A DNA stretch of 34,539 bases from contig JAATGM010000026.1 in assembly GCA_015654675.1 (NCBI GenBank), forward strand, positions 1-34,539. Reading direction: 5' to 3'. Source of the DNA: Planctomycetota bacterium. GTDB taxonomy: Bacteria; Planctomycetota; Phycisphaerae; UBA1845; UTPLA1. The notes beneath the pieces were generated by a model that did no database searches, was not told the DNA's origin, and worked only from the letters and a program-made list of their open reading frames with translations. The position numbers and the translations under genes were made by a program. Of this stretch, positions 2,993-19,352 are shown in pieces (position 1 is the stretch's first letter; each line of letters starts with the position of its first letter).

Positions 2993-4249
2993 CCCGACGG
3001 GTTGGAGTGCTTTGGGGATCTCGACGTCGAACTGCGGGCGCTGGGGATTGGCGTCGACCTCGATGTGTGGATCAAGAAAGACACAGCCGCCCGGCGGCGG
3101 GCCGACGACTTCGAGTTCGATGGCATGCGACTGTTCGACGGCATAAAGCGACGCGTCGCGGTCGCGGACGTGGAGACCGATCGCGTAGCGGCCGGGCGGG
3201 ACGTTGAGTTCGAATGCGCATCGGACGGAGCGTGTTTCGCCGGCCTGGGCGGGGGCGAAGGCGAGGTCTTGCCGCGAGCTGCTGGTTTCGTAAAGCGTGG
3301 TCTGATCGGCCAGCGAAATGAGAGAGAAGCCGAATGACGGCGCGGGGACAGGGAGGTTGAAGCTTACGGAGTATTCGAAGGTCAACGTCTGTCCGGGGCC
3401 GGCCGCGTGGACGACGCGCCCGGATACATCGACGATTCGCGAGTTGATAACGATGGCGGCGGGTCGTCCATCGTCGGTCGATAATCGGATCGACGCCGAG
3501 GCGAGGTCGCGGTAACGGGCGACTGCCTCGGCGGGCGGGCCGTGGAAGGCGGGGCGGCCGGCGACCAGCACGAGCACGGACGAGCAGAAGCGGCGAACCG
3601 TTTCGAGGTCATGCGAGACGAAGACCACCGCCGCGCCGGCGGCGCGGGCGGCGTACATGCGATCGAGGCAGCGGGTGCGGAAGGCGCGGTCGCCGACGGA
3701 GAGCACTTCGTCGACGAGGAGGACCGGCGCGTCGAGATGGGCGGCGATCGCGAAGCCGAGCCGGGCCTGCATGCCGCTGCTATAGCGCTTGACCGGCTCG
3801 TCGAGGGCGTCGGCGATTTCGGCGAAGGCGACGATGTCGTCGAAGCGGCGGTTGATCGCACGGCGCGGCATGCCGAGGATAGCGCCGTTGAGGTGAATGT
3901 TTTCGCGGCCCGAGAGATCGGGGTGGAAGCCGGCGCCGAGTTCGATGAGGGCCGAGACGCGGCCGCTGATGTCGAGCGTGCCGCCGTCGGGCCGGAGGAT
4001 GCCGGCCATGAGTTTGAGCAGGGTGCTCTTGCCGGCGCCGTTGGGGCCGATGACGCCGAGGGCCTCGCCCGGACGAATAACAAAGCTGACTCCGTCGACG
4101 GCCCAGAAGCTGCGATTTGCCGGCTCGTTTGTTGCGCGGCGGCGCGAGGCGAGGCCGGCGATGAGGTCGCGAAGCGAGCTGTGCCGGTTCGCGGCGCGGA
4201 AGCGCTTGCGGAGGTTTTCGGCGCGGATAATCGGTTCAGCTTGCGGCAC
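2984..4249 (-). CDS. Polysaccharide/teichoic-acid export ABC transporter ATP-binding protein (Wzt/TagH-like)
   Basis: A 421-aa cytoplasmic ATPase that would energise export of a lipid-linked glycan across the inner membrane. It has Walker A GPNGAGKS (68-75), the family-typical ELGAGFHPDLSGREN block (about 103-117), signature SSGMQ (157-161), Walker B LLVDE (177-181) and the switch His in VSHD (His213). After about residue 245 comes a beta-rich region like the Wzt C-terminal domain, which in O-antigen exporters binds the end of the glycan chain. The start codon is GTG. No matching permease (Wzm/TagG) or glycan gene cluster is visible, so this looks like an orphan ATPase. The Kelch gene lies 46 bp upstream on the same strand. 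The gene ends tail-to-tail with the CLC gene, overlapping it by 9 bp. Confidence 0.9.
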   Translation of the reverse strand: MPQAEPIIRAENLRKRFRAANRHSSLRDLIAGLASRRRATNEPANRSFWAVDGVSFVIRPGEALGVIGPNGAGKSTLLKLMAGILRPDGGTLDISGRVSALIELGAGFHPDLSGRENIHLNGAILGMPRRAINRRFDDIVAFAEIADALDEPVKRYSSGMQARLGFAIAAHLDAPVLLVDEVLSVGDRAFRTRCLDRMYAARAAGAAVVFVSHDLETVRRFCSSVLVLVAGRPAFHGPPAEAVARYRDLASASIRLSTDDGRPAAIVINSRIVDVSGRVVHAAGPGQTLTFEYSVSFNLPVPAPSFGFSLISLADQTTLYETSSSRQDLAFAPAQAGETRSVRCAFELNVPPGRYAIGLHVRDRDASLYAVEQSHAIELEVVGPPPGGCVFLDPHIEVDANPQRPQFDVEIPKALQPVGLF

Positions 4250-5790: not shown

Positions 5791-6059
5791 CATCAGACGA
5801 CCGGAGTCTGAATTTAACTCCTCGCTGGTTCTCGGGTTAGCGCGTTCGCCCGGATCTTGCCCCCCTCGTGATTCTTGAGACAAATGAGATTCGGTGCGGT
5901 CCGGTTTGCGGGGGACTTGAGACCTGAGTCCTGGGTCTTGAGACGAGACTTGAGATGAGATTCGTGAGATGAGATTTGTGAGATTCGTTGCAAGAGCTCA
6001 ATCTCGCGGGGAACGCGCGTGGTCGGATTCACTTTTCAAAGAGCATTCGCTTACGCGAA

Positions 6060-6296: not shown

Positions 6297-7082
6297 TTAA
6301 TCGGAATCGTACATGCCGCAGGTGTGATAGAAGGATGGATAAGGGGCAGGAGAAGTCCGAGCTTTGTCAAAATCTTTGTTTGGCAGGCGTGTCACTCCTA
6401 GTAGAACGGTGTGATGAGCGGGAAACTCCTGCACGCGACTAAACACGCCGAAGACTCGTACCTGGCTCAGCTTGTCGACAATTGCAACCGGGCCGCCGGA
6501 ACAGCCATGCAGGTCGCGCGTCGGACCTGAGAGCCAAACCATGCAGGGGCCGTCGTTGGAATACTCGGGTGTCACGACGCGGGCGGTGAATATCTCCGCT
6601 TTGCGCTGGGCGTGCTCGACGGAGTCGTAGTTATTGACCGGCGGACGAACCGGGAAGCCGCCGATGAAGACCAGGTCGCCGGCGCGGAGTTCGACTGTTG
6701 GGTCGATGATGTTCGGCTTGAAGCGATCCTGCAGACCGCGAATCACGATCCAATCGTCCTGCGATTGAACGGGCTTCTTTCGACGAATCCATCCCTGGGA
6801 TTGCGGGATGCGCATCGGCGCAGCACCAGCGGAGACCTGTTCGGTGTTTCCGCTCAACGCATGGGCGGCCATGACGACGTTGCGTTTCGAGACCGGAAAA
6901 CCGGATGAGCCGCTAGTGTCAAAAATGGGGACGACCTGAAGATCGCGCTCGATGATTTTCAACGCCTCGGCCTCGGCGGGCGTCTGGGGCGTCGGCGGTT
7001 TGAGGGCAGCGCAGCCCGAAAGCGCGGCGGCGCTCAGGACAGCGAACAGGACCGGTCGATTTGTCGAGCGGCGGCGTATCAT
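6297..7082 (-). CDS. Trypsin-like serine protease lipoprotein, copy 2
   Basis: A protein of 261 aa, last gene of the four-gene operon. I place the start at the ATG at 7082, because it overlaps the stop of the upstream gene as ATGA and leads straight into a lipoprotein signal (lipobox LSGC, Cys24); a longer frame upstream has no signal. The S1-like triad can be read as His74 in MAAHA, Asp110 in DDWIVI and Ser195 in HGCSGGP, the usual order and similar to AAHC / D-I-A / GDSGGP in trypsins. The product should be a lipid-anchored, probably periplasm-facing protease; its substrate is unknown. It is a paralog of the gene at 7899-8693, with the triad at the same spacing. Downstream lies the repeat-rich gene-free region. 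Confidence 0.8.
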   Translation of the reverse strand: MIRRRSTNRPVLFAVLSAAALSGCAALKPPTPQTPAEAEALKIIERDLQVVPIFDTSGSSGFPVSKRNVVMAAHALSGNTEQVSAGAAPMRIPQSQGWIRRKKPVQSQDDWIVIRGLQDRFKPNIIDPTVELRAGDLVFIGGFPVRPPVNNYDSVEHAQRKAEIFTARVVTPEYSNDGPCMVWLSGPTRDLHGCSGGPVAIVDKLSQVRVFGVFSRVQEFPAHHTVLLGVTRLPNKDFDKARTSPAPYPSFYHTCGMYDSD

Positions 7083-7867
7083 CCTTTGACCGGGTGAATT
7101 AGACGGTTCAACGGCAGGGCGGAGAGGATCGCGCCGCGGGCGGGGTCGTTCTGAATCTGGTTGAAGATAAGGGCTGCGATGCAGGGCGGTTCGCCAGGCC
7201 GAATAACAGCGACCGGGCCGCCGCGAAAGGCGCGGTAGTCTCCCGGCGGGGCCAATAGCCATATCAGGTGTTCGTCTATCGGGGCGGATAGCAAACCGGG
7301 CGGCAACTGATCGGGCCCGATCACGGTGGCGGACTGTTCACTTGCGGGTGCCGAGAGCGATTGCGATGGAGTCGTGTCGGTGGCGGGCGGAGCAAAACCG
7401 GCGATGCGGACGCACTGGCCGGGCTCAAGCGAGGCATCGGCGCAGAAGGTGTTGGCGAGGTGCGGCCGGCGGTTGTCGTGGAAGACGTCAAGCCGTGGGA
7501 CTTCATCAGCGCGACCGGGGGCCTTGAAAAATGCCTTGTGGTTGGTGAAGCCAAACGGGGCCGGAGCGCCTTCGACGATGACGGCCCAGGGCTCGTAGTC
7601 GGGTGAGTCCACCAGGGTGGCGAAGTCACGGCGTTCGATAGGTGTGCCAGCGCGGAGACCGGATTCGCCGGTGACGTGGAGGACGACGAGGGCGGAGTCG
7701 GGGGTGGTTGGGTCGGGGCGGGGTTGGTAGCTGGCGGTTTGAGCGGCGCAGCCGGCGAGGAGGCATGCCGCAAGAGTGAAGTAACCCAGCGTGTGAAGCA
7801 AGCGAATTGGATTGGCACGATTGGAACAGTGCGCTGGCCTGGATCGTGAGTGTAGCGAACGAGGCAT
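7079..7867 (-). CDS. Pseudoprotease lipoprotein (trypsin-like fold without catalytic Ser), copy 2
   Basis: A protein of 262 aa with a long basic N-terminus and lipobox LLAGC (Cys40). A shorter start (for example a TTG near residue 23) is possible, since no Shine-Dalgarno precedes the ATG. Towards the C-terminus, LLAPPGDYRAFRGGPVAVI (residues 204-222) aligns with LLGPPGDFHGCSGGPAAIV of the neighbouring protease: the G-C-S-G-G-P active-site loop has become A-F-R-G-G-P, so the nucleophile Ser is replaced by Arg215. An upstream V-R-I-A-G-F segment also matches the protease's V-F-I-G-G-F. No equivalent of the catalytic AAH motif is seen. It is therefore probably an inactive relative that partners, protects or regulates the protease encoded next, to which it is coupled by ATGA (7079-7082). 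Confidence 0.75.
   Translation of the reverse strand: MPRSLHSRSRPAHCSNRANPIRLLHTLGYFTLAACLLAGCAAQTASYQPRPDPTTPDSALVVLHVTGESGLRAGTPIERRDFATLVDSPDYEPWAVIVEGAPAPFGFTNHKAFFKAPGRADEVPRLDVFHDNRRPHLANTFCADASLEPGQCVRIAGFAPPATDTTPSQSLSAPASEQSATVIGPDQLPPGLLSAPIDEHLIWLLAPPGDYRAFRGGPVAVIRPGEPPCIAALIFNQIQNDPARGAILSALPLNRLIHPVKG
7659..7762 (-). repeat. 104-bp near-identical block, copy in unit 2
   Basis: Pairs without gaps with 9255-9358, with four mismatches in 104 bp by eye. It encodes the lipobox region and the following 30 or so residues of the pseudoprotease. The flanking DNA of the two genes is far more diverged. Confidence 0.85.
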
Positions 7868-7898
7868 CTCGATAGATTATTAGCGCGCGAGTGAGGGG

Positions 7899-8693
7899 TC
7901 AATGCGGGACAACGAATCTTGGTTCCGTCAATACGAGGTACCCTTCGGCATGCCAAGGGGTCGGGTAGGGCGGCGGCGAGTACTGAAATTTGTCGAGCGC
8001 GCTCTGAGGCAGGCGAGTGACGCCCAATAATTGGCCGAAAGGTATCCAATAGCCAAGCGTGAAGTCGCCGAATACTCGAACCTGACCCGACTCGTCGACG
8101 ATGGCGGCTGGACCGCCCGAGCAACCGTGAAAGTCGCCGGGCGGTCCAAGCAGCCACACCATACCGCCGCCACCGTCGGAGATGGATGACGTCAGCACGC
8201 GACCCATTACAAACTCGGGCTTGCGCTGGGCGTGTTCGACGGGGTCGAAGTTATTGACGGGCGGTTTGACTGGAAAGCCCCCGATGAAGACCAAGTCGCC
8301 GACGCTGAGTTTCACGGTCGGATCGATGATGTTTGGATTGAAGCGGTCCTCGCGTGCATGAATGATGACCCAGTCCTTTTCCGGCGCAATGGAAGTGTTG
8401 TGTGGAAACGTCCCTATGTTCTGCGGCGCGACCATGGGACTGCCGGCAGCACAAACGACATCGCTCGCGCTATGGCGCGCGTGAGCCGCCATGACGGCGT
8501 TTCGCCGGCTGATCGGAAAGGCGGAAGAGCCAGTGAAGTCGAAAATGGGGAGGACCTGGAGATCTTTCTGGATAATTTTCAATGCCTCGGCCTCGGCCGG
8601 AGTCTGCGGCTTCGGCGGGCGGAGAGCGGTGCAGCCAGTCAAGGCGATCAGCATCGCGGCAGCGGCGCCTATTCTGGTTCGCAGGTTCGTCAT
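7899..8693 (-). CDS. Trypsin-like serine protease lipoprotein, copy 1
   Basis: A protein of 264 aa from the ATG at 8693. An ATG 9 bases earlier (8702) is in frame, but 8693 overlaps the upstream stop as ATGA, exactly as in the second copy of the cassette. Lipobox LTGC (Cys21). The triad is His71 (MAAHA), Asp107 (KDWVII) and Ser192 (HGCSGGP). Between Asp and Ser there is a block shared with copy 2, NIIDPTV...GDLVFIGGFPV..PPVNN, and the motif EHAQRK. The protein is roughly half identical to copy 2; the middle loop between His and Asp and the C-terminus are the most changed, which suggests different specificity. The pseudoprotease gene of the second cassette starts 31 bp downstream. Confidence 0.8.
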   Translation of the reverse strand: MTNLRTRIGAAAAMLIALTGCTALRPPKPQTPAEAEALKIIQKDLQVLPIFDFTGSSAFPISRRNAVMAAHARHSASDVVCAAGSPMVAPQNIGTFPHNTSIAPEKDWVIIHAREDRFNPNIIDPTVKLSVGDLVFIGGFPVKPPVNNFDPVEHAQRKPEFVMGRVLTSSISDGGGGMVWLLGPPGDFHGCSGGPAAIVDESGQVRVFGDFTLGYWIPFGQLLGVTRLPQSALDKFQYSPPPYPTPWHAEGYLVLTEPRFVVPH

Positions 8694-9427
8694 GGTAGCC
8701 ATCTACTCAGCGGCATCGCAGTGAGGATCGCGCCTCGTTCGGGGCTGTCCTGAAGTTGTTCGACCACGATCGCGATGAGACAGGGCGCATCTCCCGGGCG
8801 AACCAGGGCGACCGGTCCGCCGCGGAAGGCACGATAGTCACCGGGTGGGGCGGCGAGGTAGATCACGTCTGGTGTTTTCGGATGCGGGTGCAGGCCGGTC
8901 GGAATCTGCTCTGCCGACAGGATCAGTGCGGAAATTTCCACCGGCGGCGCTGTCAGCGAAGCGGCGACGCTCTGGTCAGATGCGGGCGGAAGGAAACCTG
9001 CGATTTGTACGCACTGGCCGGGGTCGAGATTGTATTCGGTGCAGGGTTGGTTGCTGAGATGGAGGCCGTGGTTGTCATGATAGATGTGGAGCGGTGCGAT
9101 GTCTTCGTATTTGGGCCGCGCGATTCGAATGCCCCGGTCCAACATTGATGTCGGCGCGGGGGCCCCTTCCACGATGATGCCGTATTGTTCGGCGTCGGCC
9201 GGCTCAACGGTTGCGGCGAACTGCTGCCAACCGAGCGGGGTTCCGGCGCGTAGGCCGGATTCGCCGGTGACGTGGAGGACGACGAGGGCGGAGTCGGGGG
9301 TGGTCGGGTCGGGCCGGGGTTGGTAGGTGGCGGTTTGGGCGGCGCAGCCGGCGAGGAGCGCCAGGGGCGCAACGACGGATTGAAGCTTGAAGCGGGCGCG
9401 CGGGCAGTTTCGTCGTTCGGCGGGCAT
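8690..9427 (-). CDS. Pseudoprotease lipoprotein (trypsin-like fold without catalytic Ser), copy 1
   Basis: A protein of 245 aa and first gene of the operon. The N-terminal signal ends in LLAGC (Cys28). AAPPGDYRAFRGGPVALV (residues 192-209) matches the active-site loop of the coupled protease but has Arg202 where the nucleophile Ser should be. No catalytic His motif is visible. About 35 residues after the lipobox are almost identical to the second copy while the rest has diverged strongly (see the 104-bp block at 9255-9358). No Shine-Dalgarno is seen; a -10-like CATAAT at 9439-9444 would place the transcript start only about five bases before the ATG, so the message may be nearly leaderless. 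Diverges from the pilin-like operon across 78 bp. Confidence 0.75.
   Translation of the reverse strand: MPAERRNCPRARFKLQSVVAPLALLAGCAAQTATYQPRPDPTTPDSALVVLHVTGESGLRAGTPLGWQQFAATVEPADAEQYGIIVEGAPAPTSMLDRGIRIARPKYEDIAPLHIYHDNHGLHLSNQPCTEYNLDPGQCVQIAGFLPPASDQSVAASLTAPPVEISALILSAEQIPTGLHPHPKTPDVIYLAAPPGDYRAFRGGPVALVRPGDAPCLIAIVVEQLQDSPERGAILTAMPLSRWLP
9255..9358 (-). repeat. 104-bp near-identical block, copy in unit 1
   Basis: Partner of 7659-7762 (about 96% identical). The sharp edges of the similarity suggest gene conversion between the two pseudoprotease genes rather than slow divergence. Confidence 0.85.
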
Positions 9428-9490: not shown

Positions 9491-9505
9491 TGGTGAGTGC
9501 ACTCG

Positions 9506-10045
9506 ATGGCAGTGAATGAGTCGGTGGTCCGTGATCGGTCCGGAGTTCCGCCGCGGGGGAACGGGACGTGGTCCATTAGGGCGACGGCGCTGCTCTTGCT
9601 GGCTGTGTTTGGTCCCATGGTCGTGGTCGCCTGGTGGTATATCAGCTTCGCCGTGTCCGCGGCCAAGTACGGGGTTTGCATGGCCAATTTGCGCGGGATC
9701 GGGCAGAGCTTGTCAGTTTACGAGCAGCGATTCGGGGCATATCCGTGGGAGTTCGATGATTTGGTTCGAGCCGGCATTGCGACACCAAAGGATTTCTGTT
9801 GCCCCATGGCGGTTTTCTCGATCGGTGATGTGGATAGATGCTTCGTGTACATCCCGGGGCAGTCGAGCGCGAGCGATCCGCGGAATGTGCTGGCGTACGA
9901 GCGGCGCGGGCATCATGAGCAGTTTGGGACAAACGTGCTCTTCGCTGATATGCATGCGGAAAATGTGAAGGGGTACGACAAGGTGATGAAGCTGGTTGCG
10001 GAGACGGATGGGCGGTTGAAGGCGGCGGAGCGAGCTGGGAAATGA
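9506..10045 (+). CDS. Pilin-like (H-X9-DG family-like) membrane protein, paralog 1
   Basis: A protein of 179 aa from the ATG at 9506; a GTG at 9512 is also possible and would give V-N-E-S-V, matching the M-S-E-S-V start of the next gene. About 25 residues precede a single membrane helix, followed by C..NLR.IG, a pattern seen in planctomycete DUF1559-type pseudopilins, then a conserved C-P, the block SDPRNVLAYE and a terminal H-x10-D segment (H.QFGTNVLFAD.H). Unlike true prepilins there is no GFTLIEL-type cleavage site; the helix is internal. It should therefore stay membrane-anchored, with the pilin-like body outside. Three Cys positions are shared by all three paralogs. First gene of a plus-strand operon; overlaps the next gene as ATGA. 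Confidence 0.75.
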   Translation: MAVNESVVRDRSGVPPRGNGTWSIRATALLLLAVFGPMVVVAWWYISFAVSAAKYGVCMANLRGIGQSLSVYEQRFGAYPWEFDDLVRAGIATPKDFCCPMAVFSIGDVDRCFVYIPGQSSASDPRNVLAYERRGHHEQFGTNVLFADMHAENVKGYDKVMKLVAETDGRLKAAERAGK

Positions 10046-10614
10046 GCGAGTCGGTGGATGGAACTGATGACGCGACCGTACTCGGTTACGCCCGGGCGAA
10101 CCAGCGGGAGCGGGCGTGGAACGTGCGGCGGGCGGTTGTGTTCGTCCTCCTGGTCGCGGCTATTGGAGGCGGTGGATACTTCGTTAAGCGGGCGCGCGAT
10201 CTCGCAGCATTGCGACTTGAGTCTTGCCGGCGTCAGCTTCAGGGAATCGTTCAAGCGGCGCACATCTATGCTCAGGATTCGGACGAGTTCCCGCCCAACT
10301 TCGACTGGCTGCTCCATCACACACTCGGCGGGGGTGACTTGATCTCGGCGTTCAAATGCCCGGCTACGAACGTGGCGATCGGCAACCTGAACGCGTGCTA
10401 CCTGTATATCCCCGGGCAGCGGCCGAATAGCGACCCGCGAAACGTGCTGGCCTATGAGAAGCGCGGACATCACGGGGGCGATGCTGCCAATGTGGTCTTC
10501 GTGGATGCGCACGCGGCAACTATCTATGGGTATGACAATGTCATGAAACTGGTCAAGGAGACGGAGGTCCGGTTGAAGACGGCGGCGACGCAGCCGGCGG
10601 GTGGGGGGCGTTAG
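10042..10614 (+). CDS. Pilin-like (H-X9-DG family-like) membrane protein, paralog 2
   Basis: A protein of 190 aa. The ATG at 10042 overlaps the previous stop as ATGA. A cytoplasmic N-terminus of about 30 residues carries YARANQRERAWN, which resembles YARTNSEYRSPWDN in the fourth gene of the operon. One membrane helix (about 31-49) follows, then the pilin-like body with C..QLQGI, a central C-P, CYLYIPGQ, SDPRNVLAYEKRGHH and NVVFVDAHA. The C-terminal helix VMKLVKETEVRLK is shared with paralog 1. The motif order equals that of planctomycete H-X9-DG pseudopilin-like proteins, but no prepilin peptidase site is present. Function unknown. Confidence 0.75.
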   Translation: MSESVDGTDDATVLGYARANQRERAWNVRRAVVFVLLVAAIGGGGYFVKRARDLAALRLESCRRQLQGIVQAAHIYAQDSDEFPPNFDWLLHHTLGGGDLISAFKCPATNVAIGNLNACYLYIPGQRPNSDPRNVLAYEKRGHHGGDAANVVFVDAHAATIYGYDNVMKLVKETEVRLKTAATQPAGGGR

Positions 10615-11155
10615 CAGCGTGCGGCGCAGGCGTACATCGTTGTCTGTTGTATTGGCAGTCGTCGGCTTCATTGTGGGGGCGATTGCCATCGGGAACTATC
10701 GCTCCATCCGGTCTGACATTTGGGGGAGGTCTCGGAAGGCATTTTGCGCGGCGCATCTTCGCGAGATCGGAAGGTTGTTGACCGCAGCGGTCGACAACTA
10801 TGGCCGGTATCCGGTGGACTTCAAACTGGCTCTTGGCGACGTCGAACGTCCGGAGGCGTTGACATGTCCGGCCGCGGATGATCCCAGGGGCGGACCGATG
10901 AGCTGCTATGCGTATGTGTCGGGTCAGCGGCCCTCCGATGATCCGAGGAACGTACTTGTGTATGAGAAGCAGGCGAATCATCCGGGCGGGGCTTCGAATG
11001 TGCTGTTTGTGGATGGGCGCGTGGAGACTTTCGTGCTTTACCGCCGAGTCCTCGAGCGGGTGGCCGAGACCGAGGCCCGATTGAAGGCGACGGCGACGCA
11101 GGCGGGAGCGGACGTGAAATCGAACGTGGACGCGACGACGCAGGGGGTGCGTTGA
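10601..11155 (+). CDS. Pilin-like (H-X9-DG family-like) membrane protein, paralog 3
   Basis: Up to 184 aa. The first in-frame start is GTG at 10601, overlapping the previous gene by 14 bp. GTG at 10619 is as likely, because a G-rich run (10602-10608) stands at ribosome-site distance before it and it falls just after the previous stop. A short basic N-terminus is followed by a membrane helix, C..HLREIG, a central C-P, CYAYVSGQ, DDPRNVLVYEK and NHPGGASNVLFVDG, the copy closest to the classical H-X9-DG motif. The C-terminus (VAETEARLKAT) matches the other two paralogs. Tandem duplication is the simplest origin of the trio. Confidence 0.75.
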   Translation: MGGVSSVRRRRTSLSVVLAVVGFIVGAIAIGNYRSIRSDIWGRSRKAFCAAHLREIGRLLTAAVDNYGRYPVDFKLALGDVERPEALTCPAADDPRGGPMSCYAYVSGQRPSDDPRNVLVYEKQANHPGGASNVLFVDGRVETFVLYRRVLERVAETEARLKATATQAGADVKSNVDATTQGVR

Positions 11156-11576: not shown

Positions 11577-12365
11577 TTAATAGTTGAGAGCGAAGCCATC
11601 GGCGAAGATCCCGATAGCCTGCTGCTTACGAAATACGACGACAACTCGAGTCAGGTTTGGGGATTCTGCGTATCGCCGTGTTTCGCGGCCGGCTGGCATT
11701 TGGCGGAATTCCAGCGGTGCACCAAGGATATGATCGACTTGGGACGGTGACATCCCGAGCTTCAATCGGTCAGGATCGTATTGGCGCTCAATCTTGTCAC
11801 GCTCGATAGCATCGCCGATTGCGCCTGGCAGCAAGACCGGCGTCATGACGGCGATGAACGGTCCCCAGTTTTCGCCCTGTTTTGAGCCGGGGCCTCGCTG
11901 GACCGCCGATCGAATCTGTAGCTCCGAGAGCTCCGAACTGGCGATCGCCGCCTTTGCGAGGTCGAACAAATCGGCGTCCCTTGGTGTTGCTGGCTGGGTT
12001 GCCGCAATCTCGCGCCAGTTCTTTTCACTCACGATACGGTAGAGGTGGCCGTTCTTGAAAATGCACAGAAATCGCGCCCATTCCCGGGCATTGCCGTTGT
12101 CGCGGCTATACATGATTTCGACGGCCTGGTAGCGGTCGGAGCCATCCAGCAGCTCGAACTGAAACACGCCGGTTTTGCCCAAGCGTTTCTGCGTTTCGGC
12201 GCGAGTGCATCCGCGCGGAACTGTGGCGATCCGATCAATAGAGTCGACGCATCGGGTGTCCGGGCTTGCACATCCGGCAAGTACCAGGGGCAGTGCGAGG
12301 ATTGCGAGTGATGCCAATTGTGCCTGGCAGGTCGATACTTTGAGCGGCTTTGGGGGTTTGTGCAC
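11577..12365 (-). CDS. Lipoprotein with two BamE/SmpA-like segments
   Basis: A protein of 262 aa with a GTG start, a hydrophobic signal and lipobox VLAGC (Cys32). The C-terminal segment (196-262) contains DPDRLKLGMSPSQVDHILG, the LK.GM...QV...LG.P pattern of BamE/SmpA/OmlA outer-membrane assembly lipoproteins. The N-terminal half has a weaker version, VPRGCTRAETQKRLG (49-63), followed by beta-strand-like sequence, so the protein may be a two-domain relative. BamE proteins are normally about 110 aa with one such domain. A role in outer-membrane protein assembly is possible but not shown. Convergent with the pilin-like operon (61 bp gap, no clear terminator). Confidence 0.65.
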   Translation of the reverse strand: MHKPPKPLKVSTCQAQLASLAILALPLVLAGCASPDTRCVDSIDRIATVPRGCTRAETQKRLGKTGVFQFELLDGSDRYQAVEIMYSRDNGNAREWARFLCIFKNGHLYRIVSEKNWREIAATQPATPRDADLFDLAKAAIASSELSELQIRSAVQRGPGSKQGENWGPFIAVMTPVLLPGAIGDAIERDKIERQYDPDRLKLGMSPSQVDHILGAPLEFRQMPAGRETRRYAESPNLTRVVVVFRKQQAIGIFADGFALNY

Positions 12366-16191: not shown

Positions 16192-18354
16192 ATGAATTAT
16201 CCATCGATTCTCGGCCGTGCGGCGGCATTGCGTGGCGCGGCCGTTTTTGTTGTGTGTGGGTGTCTGGCGTTTGGCTCGGCGCGGGCTGACGACGCGACGC
16301 CGGCTGCGCCGGCCAAGGGGGCGCCGCTTCAGGACAATCTGCGCGAGATGATCGAGCAGGCGCGCGATGGCGTGTTTCCGTCTTTGGTGAACATCAGCGT
16401 CGTCACGAAGCGATACTGGAATGGCAAGGAGCAGAAGGGGCGGGCGACGGGCAGCGGTACGATCATTTCGCCCGAGGGATATGTCGTTACGAATCAGCAT
16501 GTGACGTACAACGGGAAAATCTTCAAGTGCACGCTGGCGGATCGGCAGGAGATCAGCGCGACGCTTGTCGGCGAAGACCCGTTGACAGACTTGGCGGTGC
16601 TCAAGTTGAACCTGGCGGAGTTGAAAGACCCGGCGATGAAGCTGCCGGTGGCGCAGTGGGGCAACTCGGATGATCTGCATGTCGGCGATTACGTGATGGC
16701 GATGGGGTCGCCGCTGGCGCTGTCGCGGTCGGTGACGCTGGGGATTGTGTCGAACACCGAGCGGGTGTTCGCGGGCGGGATGGGGATCGATCAGGACAAT
16801 ATGGAGCTGGAGGAGGGGCAGCGGACGGGGTTGTTTACGCGGTGGATTCAGCACGATGCGCTGATCAATCCAGGCAACAGCGGCGGGCCGCTGGTGAATA
16901 TGCAGGGCAAGATTGTCGGCGTGAATGAGTTGGGCGGAAATGCGATTGGATTTGCGATTCCGAGCAATTTGGCGCGGGGGGTCGCTGACGCCTTGATCAA
17001 GGGTGGCGAGGTTCCGCGGAGTTGGCTGGGTGTGAGCATTCGGCCGATTCAGAAGACCGGATTTGATCATGGCGTGCTCGTCAACTCGGTGGTTGAGAGC
17101 GGTCCGGCCGGCAAGGCGGGATTGCAGGCGGGCGACCTGATCGTCCGGCTGAATGGCGACGCGCTGACGGTTCGATTCCCGGAGGAGATTCCACCGCTGC
17201 TGCGAAAAGTGGCCGAGCTTCCGATCGGCGACAAGCTGGTGGTGACGTATGAGCGCGACGGCAAGCCGGGCGAGCTGACGATCATCACGGAGAAGTTGCA
17301 GAAGGATCGCGGCGAGGAGAGCGCGTTCCGCGGCTGGGGGCTGACGGCGCTTGAGATTACCGACTACATGGCGCGCGAAGGCAAGCTCGATTCGACCGAG
17401 GGCGTGCTGGTATCGAGCATTCGCAATGGCGGGCCGGCGCAGCTGGCCGAGCCGCCGCTGGACGACGGAGACGTCATTCAATCGATCGACAGCGAAAAGG
17501 TGAAGGACCTGAATGACTTCATTGATCGCTATGCGACCATCATGAAGAAGAAGCCGCTGCCGGAGTATCTCACGATCGGCTTTGAGCGGCGCGGCCGAAA
17601 CTTCATCACGCTGCTCAAGCCGACGCCGGACAAGGAAGACGATCCACCGCGCGAGGTGGCCAAGGCGTGGATCGGAATCGCGACGCAACCGGTGCTGAAG
17701 GAGCTGGCGAAGCGACTGGGGCATGCCGACTCGATGGGGTTCCGCATCACGCGGGTTTATCCTAAGACGAAGGCCTCGGAGGCGGGGTTCGAGGTGGGCG
17801 ACATCATTCTGGCGGTGAACGGCGACAAGGTGACGCCACGCGGAATTCAGGACGCGGGCCTGCTCGACCGCAAGATTCGCAAACTGGCCATCGGCGAGAC
17901 GGCGAAACTGAAATTGTTGCGCGGAAAGGACACCAAGGAAGTCACCGTGCCGCTTGAGCGAACGCGGCTCACGCCCGAGGAGGCACGGCGCGAACGTAAT
18001 CGCGATTTCGAGATGACGGTTCGCGAGCTGACGTTTTTCGACCGGGACGAGAATCGCTGGGACGAAAACGTGAAGGGCGTCATGGTTCAACAGGCCGAGC
18101 CGGCGGGCTGGGCGGGATTGGCCGGCGTCTCATCCGGCGATCTGATTCAACGCATCGCGGAATATCCGATCACGGATCTGGAGTCGTTTCGCGCGGCCAT
18201 GAAGAAAGTCGCCGAGGCGCAGCCGGAACGCGTGGTGTTTGTCGTGCTGCGCGGGGTTGAGACGCGCTACCTGTTTGCGGAGCCGGACTGGAAGCCGGTG
18301 GTGGAGAAGGAAAAGGGCAAGAAGAGCGATGATGGGGCGAAGAAGTCGTCGTAG
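16192..18354 (+). CDS. HtrA/DegP-like serine protease with several PDZ domains
   Basis: A 720-aa exported protease, probably for quality control of envelope proteins. The ATG at 16192 follows AAAGG by about 7 bases; a TATACT (16164-16169) could be the -10. Signal peptide to about residue 32 (SARA/DD). The trypsin-like domain has His103 (VVTNQHV), Asp133 (LTDLAVL) and Ser230 (NPGNSGGPLV), a complete HtrA triad. After it come what read as four PDZ-like units (about 277-365, 380-470, 490-590 and 610-700), each with a G-V/G-F start and an 'AGL..GD.I...NG' core; DegP has two and DegS one. The C-terminal 20 residues are Lys-rich. A degenerate relative is encoded 41 bp downstream, probably in the same operon. 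Confidence 0.9.
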   Translation: MNYPSILGRAAALRGAAVFVVCGCLAFGSARADDATPAAPAKGAPLQDNLREMIEQARDGVFPSLVNISVVTKRYWNGKEQKGRATGSGTIISPEGYVVTNQHVTYNGKIFKCTLADRQEISATLVGEDPLTDLAVLKLNLAELKDPAMKLPVAQWGNSDDLHVGDYVMAMGSPLALSRSVTLGIVSNTERVFAGGMGIDQDNMELEEGQRTGLFTRWIQHDALINPGNSGGPLVNMQGKIVGVNELGGNAIGFAIPSNLARGVADALIKGGEVPRSWLGVSIRPIQKTGFDHGVLVNSVVESGPAGKAGLQAGDLIVRLNGDALTVRFPEEIPPLLRKVAELPIGDKLVVTYERDGKPGELTIITEKLQKDRGEESAFRGWGLTALEITDYMAREGKLDSTEGVLVSSIRNGGPAQLAEPPLDDGDVIQSIDSEKVKDLNDFIDRYATIMKKKPLPEYLTIGFERRGRNFITLLKPTPDKEDDPPREVAKAWIGIATQPVLKELAKRLGHADSMGFRITRVYPKTKASEAGFEVGDIILAVNGDKVTPRGIQDAGLLDRKIRKLAIGETAKLKLLRGKDTKEVTVPLERTRLTPEEARRERNRDFEMTVRELTFFDRDENRWDENVKGVMVQQAEPAGWAGLAGVSSGDLIQRIAEYPITDLESFRAAMKKVAEAQPERVVFVVLRGVETRYLFAEPDWKPVVEKEKGKKSDDGAKKSS

Positions 18355-18395
18355 ATGAGAGTGGACCTGGGTTGGTGGAAGCTAAAGAGGAATAC

Positions 18396-19352
18396 ATGAC
18401 TAATTCGAAACTGGCACGATCGGGATGGGTGATTGCGGCCTGCTGCGCGGTGTGTGCGGCATTCGGGTCGGCGGCGCGGGCGGACGACGCGGCGCTGTTC
18501 GACAAGCTATACAACACTTATTCGCCGTCGATCGTGACGATCAAGTTCGTGCTCAAGGTGAAGTCGAGCATGGGCGAGCAGGAGAACGAGAGCGAGACGA
18601 CCGGCGCGATGATCGACGCGAAAGGGTTGGTCATCTGCTCGAATTCGCAGATCGGCGGCTTCAGCGCGGCGGTGAAGAAGATGCTCGCACGGCGCGGCGG
18701 CGACGTGAGTGCAACGCCGACGGACATCAAGGTTCTCGTGGGGGACGACGCCGAGGGCGTTGAAGGCAAAGTGGTGGCGCGCGACAGCGACCTTGACCTT
18801 GCCTGGGTGCAGATCAAGACGCCGCCGTCCAAGCCCTACGCATTCATCGATTTCGGCAAGTCGACTAATGTTCGTCCGGGCGACCGGATCTTCTCGGTCC
18901 GCCGGCTCGACAAGTATTACGACCGCTCGATCGTCATCAGCGAAGGGTGGATCGCCGGAGCGACCAAGAAGCCGCGCGACATGTTCGCGCCGGGCGGGAC
19001 CATCGCGAATGCCGTGGGGCTGCCGGTGTATATGGGCGGCGGCGAACCGATCGGCGTCATCATCACGCAGATGGCCGAAGACGATGAAGACATGCGCAAC
19101 ATGCAACGGACGACGGGCGCATTCGTCCTGCCGGCCGGCGAAGTGATGAAGGCGACTCAGCGAGCGCGCGAAAGCGCCGCCAGCGGAAAGAGCGACGACA
19201 GCGACGACGCGGATGCGGACTCGAAAGACAAGAAGGACGACAAGAAGGCGTCGGGCAAGGACGGCGACGACGATTCGAAAAAGCCGGGTGACAAGAAGGC
19301 CGCCGACAAGCCGGCCGACGAGAAGAAATCCGGCGCTAAGAAGGCCGACTAG
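18396..19352 (+). CDS. HtrA-like pseudoprotease with acidic/lysine tail
   Basis: A protein of 318 aa. The ATG at 18396 has AGAGG five bases upstream. The signal peptide (AFGSAARA/DD) closely resembles that of the HtrA gene before it. The fold motifs of the HtrA protease domain are recognisable but dead: TGAMIDAKGLVICSNSQ (69-85) stands where the protease has TGSGTIISPEGYVVTNQHV, so the catalytic His is lost. DLDLAWVQIK (132-141) keeps the Asp region, and NAVGLPVYM (205-213) replaces GNSGGPLVN, so the nucleophile Ser is lost. No PDZ domain follows; instead there is a charged tail of about 55 residues of Lys, Asp and Ala. It could regulate or scaffold the upstream protease, or bind unfolded proteins. 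It ends 3 bp from the convergent gene. Confidence 0.8.
   Translation: MTNSKLARSGWVIAACCAVCAAFGSAARADDAALFDKLYNTYSPSIVTIKFVLKVKSSMGEQENESETTGAMIDAKGLVICSNSQIGGFSAAVKKMLARRGGDVSATPTDIKVLVGDDAEGVEGKVVARDSDLDLAWVQIKTPPSKPYAFIDFGKSTNVRPGDRIFSVRRLDKYYDRSIVISEGWIAGATKKPRDMFAPGGTIANAVGLPVYMGGGEPIGVIITQMAEDDEDMRNMQRTTGAFVLPAGEVMKATQRARESAASGKSDDSDDADADSKDKKDDKKASGKDGDDDSKKPGDKKAADKPADEKKSGAKKAD

Follow-up and report, generated by a model that had tools for sequence, protein, structure and literature searches.

To our knowledge, few bacterial pairs of a protease and a pseudoprotease are understood. Two described systems are functional precedents for the locus reported here. In magnetotactic bacteria, the dead trypsin-like protein MamO is required in a non-catalytic way for MamE-dependent proteolysis (PMC4794232). 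In Clostridioides difficile, CspC, a further dead relative of the protease CspB, is described as sensing the germinant and activating CspB (PMC4619724). The window analyzed here is a stretch of 34,539 nucleotides from a Planctomycetota bacterium (contig JAATGM010000026.1), whose own genome is referred to as G000; other genomes are given by similar handles. On the minus strand of the window, at 6297-9427, four genes were found in the order A1-B1-A2-B2. B1 and B2 are predicted serine proteases, and A1 and A2 are relatives of them which have lost the catalytic triad. We consider it probable (about 0.6) that A and B descend from one trypsin-fold ancestor, and that A is a non-catalytic partner which binds B at the envelope and controls it; the pair was duplicated in this genome.

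Organization of the A-B locus

A first-pass annotation of this DNA had described four lipoprotein genes in the order pseudoprotease-protease-pseudoprotease-protease, and the open reading frames (ORFs) of the locus agree with it. All four predicted proteins possess a lipobox-like cysteine after a hydrophobic start (LAGC, LTGC, LAGC and LSGC, identified by eye), while an automated lipobox pattern picked LAAC first in A2. The ATGA coupling annotated for both pairs is present, the stop codon of each A gene overlapping the start codon of the following B gene; the first ATG in the ORF list, at 8702, is not the coupled ATG of the A1/B1 overlap. As both pairs overlap in this way and the gap from B1 to A2 is 31 bases, all four appear to be members of a single operon.

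Homology and predicted fold of A and B

The annotation had also held that each pseudoprotease contains a segment alignable with its protease, and the comparisons extend this to the whole families. Comparison of the A and B family profiles by hhalign gave a probability of 99.6% (E-value 1.8e-23) over 215 columns. BLASTP of A2 against B2, a single comparison with the signal parts included, gave an E-value of 4e-7 with 24% identity over 240 columns. After removal of the signal peptides, the mature A and B proteins scored above 500 of 500 shuffles in all four comparisons (z 4.9-9.5). Taken on sequence, A and B are homologous.

In Pfam, Trypsin_2 was matched by five of seven B family members at E-values up to 1, the best being 4.5e-12. 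B2 matched it with an E-value of 1.9e-4, its 22.7 bits falling short of the curated cut-off (27.6). B1 gave no Trypsin_2 match. The seven members of the A family showed nothing meaningful in Pfam, one of them having a chance match (E-value 0.24). In the PDB, sequence search found one chance match for A (E-value 0.18) and weak matches for B, with a serine protease on top at 0.016. No HtrA, MamE or MamO match was found in NCBIfam for the four window proteins, and no subtilisin match in Pfam or NCBIfam. B is predicted to be an active serine protease of a Trypsin_2-like family.

The weak AlphaFold2 single-protein models of A2 and B2 were searched with Foldseek. For A2, the best 50 of 509 matches were by title trypsin/S1-type proteases or complexes with them; the best E-value was 7.9e-4, the sole one below 0.001 among the matches listed, with a TM score of about 0.3. 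The B2 model, used as control, found the same fold more weakly: its best E-value was 0.053, and the 50 matches listed included unrelated proteins. These searches lend mild support to a trypsin fold as what the models of A and B match.

Loss of the catalytic triad in A

The alignment places His, Asp and Ser in the triad columns of both B1 and B2, in agreement with the set first read in each protease (with Ser in HGCSGGP). In the same columns A1 and A2 contain Glu and Asp, a gap and Arg, and Arg and Arg, respectively. The contrast holds across the families. Ser, along with His and Asp, is present in all seven B rows, which do not include the B protein of G004, cut by a contig end. Ser occurs in none of the seven A rows, whose residues at this position are R, R, I, I, V, I, I, and His and Asp are each absent from all six A rows having a residue there. 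The full triad is also present in the four outside rows, comprising two proteins of G103, one of G093 and the HtrA protein of the window. The annotation had drawn attention to an Arg loop (AFRGGP) without a catalytic His in the pseudoproteases. Both features are found in A1 and A2, but Arg at the nucleophile position is confined to these two window copies, and the other five A rows contain Ile (four) or Val (one). Arg as the key feature was rejected on this ground, and the general feature of A is the loss of the whole triad, not the Arg loop. The frame of the loop around GGP is retained in A despite the missing nucleophile. Only short blocks are common to the A sequences of different genomes.

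Distribution and linkage of the A-B pair

Single-protein searches of 150 relatives found A2 matches in 7 genomes and B2 matches in 10, some of them weak. The A profile identified six of the 114 genomes of the order (G000, G002, G003, G004, G016 and G066); G006 matched it solely through its B gene, located at a contig start. B adjoins A in all six genomes, the contig of G004 holding only the first ~60 residues of B. Checking for co-occurrence across genomes, as the annotation had suggested, showed that B lies directly after A in 7/7 A copies with a readable downstream side. The seven junctions comprise four ATGA overlaps (two in the window, one each in G003 and G004), a GTGA overlap in G002, a 13-base overlap in G016 and a fusion in G066. 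The expectation that ATGA is always present held for overlap or fusion as such (7/7), and not for ATGA itself (4/7). None of the outcomes that would have spoken against the annotation occurred: A and B are homologous by the comparisons above, the models being too weak to settle the fold by themselves, A was not found mostly without the protease, and Ser did not appear in the loop.

The fusion in G066 (L019:730-2085) is 451 residues long and contains A with GFIGGP followed by B with His, Asp and GVSGGP, which supports a physical association of A and B. Every complete copy of A that was read is an open frame. An extra A fragment was found in G016 at a contig end, its downstream side being unreadable. 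In this genome the contigs break inside A at the end of L035 and the start of L030, with a 113-base overlap in which 97 of 113 bases are alike by hand count; the cassette may be present twice, or a single locus may be broken here.

Within the order, relatives of B without A were found in G103 (two tandem copies, both with the triad kept) and G093 (a weak match). Weak single matches in G026, G084 and G077, also of the order, did not reach an E-value of 0.001 in the profile searches, and G124 gave a weak single-protein match. Among 392 genomes from the phylum, the A profile found G000 alone, and the B profile found G000 and two weak matches which read as ordinary proteases. The A profile added one weak match among 397 genomes from the class, a protein in which all three triad residues are seen by eye. 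Since only six or seven candidates were scored per genome, the phylum and class searches are less sensitive. The A-B pair is patchily distributed.

Mobile and defence contexts were considered as well. A pattern scan of genome contigs with P0003 matched 39 stretches with no relative among them, and with alignment A4 it gave one record. In viral contigs, 25 stretches matched the pattern of alignment A4 and none was confirmed as a relative. The B protein of G002 had no match in plasmids or phages, and six proteins had none in PHROG at E-values up to 0.01. Mobile or phage cargo was rejected in view of the lack of such matches for the sequences searched. With PADLOC defence models, six proteins (the four of the window, and B and the protein C, described below, of G002) gave a sole weak match, of B2 to LmuA (E-value 0.02, 12.2 bits), and they are not counted as anti-phage defence proteins.

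A third gene, C, upstream of the pair

In four loci (G002, G003, G016 and G066) another gene, C, is situated directly upstream of A. It encodes about 140-240 residues as read; the G002 and G006 proteins show a signal-like start, and the starts in the other three genomes are uncertain. A C profile built from four rows found C in five of the 114 genomes, all five with B. In G006, the fifth of them, C stops at a contig edge and B starts at a different one, an arrangement that would fit A lying in the gap. Searches of Pfam, NCBIfam and the PDB gave no meaningful match for C (best chance match at E-value 0.007), the PDB giving none at all, and C is unrelated to A by hhalign (0.1%). Because it is restricted to genomes with B, C is a candidate substrate or ligand.

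Other candidates for C were rejected. In the window, a lipoprotein gene at 11577-12365 and three tandem genes at 9497-11155 are unlike C by eye. A protein downstream of the tandem trypsins of G103 looked similar by eye, but gave 0.4% with hhalign and an E-value of 0.11 with hmmsearch; only one of the four rows scored well above shuffles, and of 60 genomes searched the remaining 59 gave no match. G066 possesses a second C copy away from the cassette (in the region 1690-3868 of L076, C190), which lies beside an opposite-strand ORF named by eye as tyrosine-recombinase-like, and near an ORF resembling one beside the G066 cassette. In G003 (L028 of C36), the C-A-B cassette lies between the two copies of a 116-base repeat with 89% identity, at 3635-3750 and 5943-6058. 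By eye, the reading frame of C has a first part similar to the beginning of the following gene. Insertion, rearrangement or an assembly effect are possible origins of this arrangement.

Evolution of the pair

To place the members relative to each other, an 18-row tree was examined. All A sequences lie on one side of a branch (support 95/91), and A1 with A2 (100/99) and B1 with B2 (99/94) are sisters. As A forms one group, the triad was probably lost in a single event, early and before the window pair duplicated. The A-B pair itself was duplicated as a unit in the lineage of the window. By the NG86 method, the nonsynonymous (dN) and synonymous (dS) divergences were 0.43 and 0.95 between A1 and A2 (dN/dS about 0.46) and 0.37 and 1.50 between B1 and B2 (dN/dS 0.25), with dS high in both comparisons; LWL85 gave dN/dS of 0.55 and 0.27. 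As dN/dS is below 1 by both methods, A is judged to be under constraint and no decaying copy. A1 and A2 are nearly identical where the mature protein begins, and their fourfold sites are alike at 19/28 positions in alignment columns 40-79 against 30/64 elsewhere, which is only suggestive of gene conversion between the two.

Proposed mechanism and alternative explanations

In the mechanism we propose, A and B would have arisen from a single envelope trypsin-fold ancestor. B retained the triad; in A it was lost, probably in a single event, and A would have persisted as an obligate non-catalytic partner. Made from overlapping genes, the two proteins would leave the cytoplasm and probably be held next to each other by lipid anchors. 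There A would bind B and control where, when or on what it cuts, its most likely role being that of an allosteric or positioning subunit. Duplication of the whole pair in this genome has given two A-B units in one operon, and C, encoded just upstream in some relatives, may be the substrate or ligand. The fused gene, the overlap at every separate junction read and the lack of any readable A without B suggest that the two proteins are produced in similar amounts and form a physical complex. Since all catalytic residues are lost and the loop frame is kept, A probably provides a binding or allosteric surface. The association side of this interpretation is strengthened by the present comparisons. 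For the effect of A on B, control by activation, positioning or sensing is favored, with an inhibitor of the pro-region kind as the first rival.

According to that rival, A would act like a detached pro-region, as inhibitor or chaperone and not as activator or sensor: it would fold B, or keep the active site of B blocked for as long as A is in place. The gene order speaks for it, A being encoded before B in all seven readable loci and N-terminal to it in the fusion, and the substrate-loop frame around GGP without a nucleophile could occupy or mimic the cleft; a fusion of a live and a dead protease, CspBA of C. difficile, is reported to be cut between its domains (PMC5241399). A is, however, a full-length trypsin-like paralog of B and no short pro-region, and MamO, the precedent with a trypsin fold, promotes proteolysis (PMC4794232); we regard a pro-region role as unlikely. 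It is also rather improbable that A has a function of its own, such as metal, ligand or surface binding, and shares an operon with B for joint expression only. Its seemingly faster evolution by the NG86 ratios and the restriction of shared A sequence to short blocks would suit such independence, and a separate metal-binding role is described for MamO in the same paper. Overlap or fusion at 7/7 readable junctions, together with the lack of any readable A without B, favors instead stoichiometric production and association. The simplest alternative, an ordinary tandem duplication in which one copy decays and no joint function exists, has in its favor that the family does duplicate in tandem, as seen in the two window pairs and in the two copies of G103, both with the triad. 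It is largely contradicted by the triad-less form being one group kept in six genomes, by its open frame in each complete copy and by the dN/dS values, and is considered very improbable.

Against a partner of B that binds and controls it, several points have to be counted. Linkage and fusion do not distinguish among activation, inhibition and positioning of B by A. The system is rare, with A in 6/114 genomes of the order and in G000 alone among the 392 of the phylum, and its linkage for this reason rests on few related lineages, mostly draft genomes. In the tree, B as a single group is weakly supported (64/83) and many branches are long. The AlphaFold2 models, built from three sequences each, are poor, with a mean predicted local distance difference test score of 43.1 for A2 and 42.7 for B2. 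The lipobox pattern occurs in just 7 of 15 A, B and C sequences tested, and the C profile gave no match in G000 at E-values up to 0.001 and none in G004. As for the precedent, PMC4794232 states that a physical interaction of MamO with MamE was not detected by its authors, which also agrees with an own function of A, and that activation by MamO needs its C-terminal transporter domain, a domain which A, judged by its length, does not have.

Coordinates of the features and neighboring genes

The features of the locus are collected in the table below, with all positions counted on the window.

Table. Genes, overlaps and active-site codons of the A-B locus
Feature	Position	Strand	Basis
A1, triad-less trypsin-fold paralog (putative pseudoprotease), lipoprotein-like, 245 amino acids	8690..9427	-	ORF, translation, family hhalign to B, triad columns
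A1 Arg codon at nucleophile position (AFRGGP)	8822..8824	-	translation, Ser column; hand-counted position
ATGA overlap, A1 stop/B1 start	8690..8693	-	sequence, translations
B1, predicted Trypsin_2-like family serine protease, full triad, lipoprotein-like, 264 amino acids	7899..8693	-	translation, triad columns
B1 catalytic His codon	8481..8483	-	His column; hand-counted position
B1 catalytic Asp codon	8373..8375	-	Asp column; hand-counted position
B1 catalytic Ser codon (HGCSGGP)	8118..8120	-	translation, Ser column; hand-counted, checked on sequence
A2, second triad-less paralog, 262 amino acids, 54% identity to A1	7079..7867	-	translation, triad columns
A2 Arg codon at nucleophile position	7223..7225	-	translation, Ser column; hand-counted position
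ATGA overlap, A2 stop/B2 start	7079..7082	-	sequence, translations
B2, predicted Trypsin_2-like serine protease, full triad, lipoprotein-like, 261 amino acids, 55% identity to B1	6297..7082	-	translation, triad columns
B2 catalytic His codon, residue 74	6861..6863	-	His column
B2 catalytic Asp codon, residue 110	6753..6755	-	Asp column
B2 catalytic Ser codon, residue 195	6498..6500	-	Ser column

On the plus strand, divergent from A1, the three genes at 9497-11155 encode tandem short proteins which look related by eye and whose ends overlap. The third of them has a sub-threshold H-X9-DG domain match (E-value 0.039, 13.8 bits against 19).

A further tandem of a protease and a dead relative is present in the window at 16192-19352. 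It consists of an HtrA/Do protease with PDZ domains (16192-18354, plus strand) followed by an HtrA-like protein (18372-19352) in which His and Ser are lost by eye. Like the A-B cassette, it combines a protease with a relative lacking His and Ser at the triad places; unlike it, the tandem belongs to the HtrA family and contains PDZ domains, and it is not part of the cassette. Of 21 genomes, 12 (counting that of the window) have relatives of the dead HtrA-like protein. Six of ten loci, again with that of the window, were read in frame, and all six lack His and Ser by eye. A GNSGGP frame in the same-strand flanks was found in the window's locus only and in none of the other nine HtrA-like loci, so among the loci examined in the family the tandem was seen in the window alone. 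In G421 (L079, C556), the minus strand of the locus encodes an HtrA-type protease with GNSGGP and a relative with GNVGGP, without His at the expected place by eye. Given this second, unrelated tandem in the window and another in G421, elsewhere in the phylum, pairs of a protease with a dead relative may have evolved repeatedly in the phylum.

Comparison with known systems

Searches of the open-licence literature listed no description of an A-B operon, in line with the annotation, which knew of no named system with this layout; functional precedents do exist in MamE/MamO and CspBA/CspC. MamE and MamO are likewise a trypsin-like protease and a relative with a degenerate site, and both are encoded in the magnetosome island (PMC4794232). 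They differ in being of HtrA type, while the four window proteins match none of the HtrA, MamE and MamO models, and A and B are short and lipoprotein-like, with overlapping or fused genes. In C. difficile, the active protease CspB is made fused to its dead relative CspA and the fusion is processed between its domains, as described in PMC5241399. Those proteins are subtilisin-like and belong to a spore system, B being Trypsin_2-like, and the active domain comes first in CspBA, as inferred from its name, whereas the dead one is first in the G066 fusion. By analogy, one may tentatively imagine a three-part envelope device with C as ligand, substrate or reporter, A as dead-protease sensor and B as a protease switched on by A. 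It would be an independent trypsin-fold counterpart of CspC/CspA/CspB, patchy in distribution and duplicated here as two parallel units, a picture that we regard as rather unlikely.

Insects and crustaceans also have non-catalytic trypsin-fold proteins, the serine protease homologs (SPHs), which are described as acting in protease pathways. The genes of these animal proteins are not known to form overlapping pairs with that of their protease. The present pair is a clean one, occurring as separate genes, as a natural single-chain fusion and as a duplicated version in one operon, all with short proteins. Owing to this, the way in which an inactive protease directs an active one becomes directly testable with soluble proteins, in cognate against swapped combinations. 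The A-B pair may work like MamE/MamO or like CspBA/CspC, of which it is a functional parallel and not a member.

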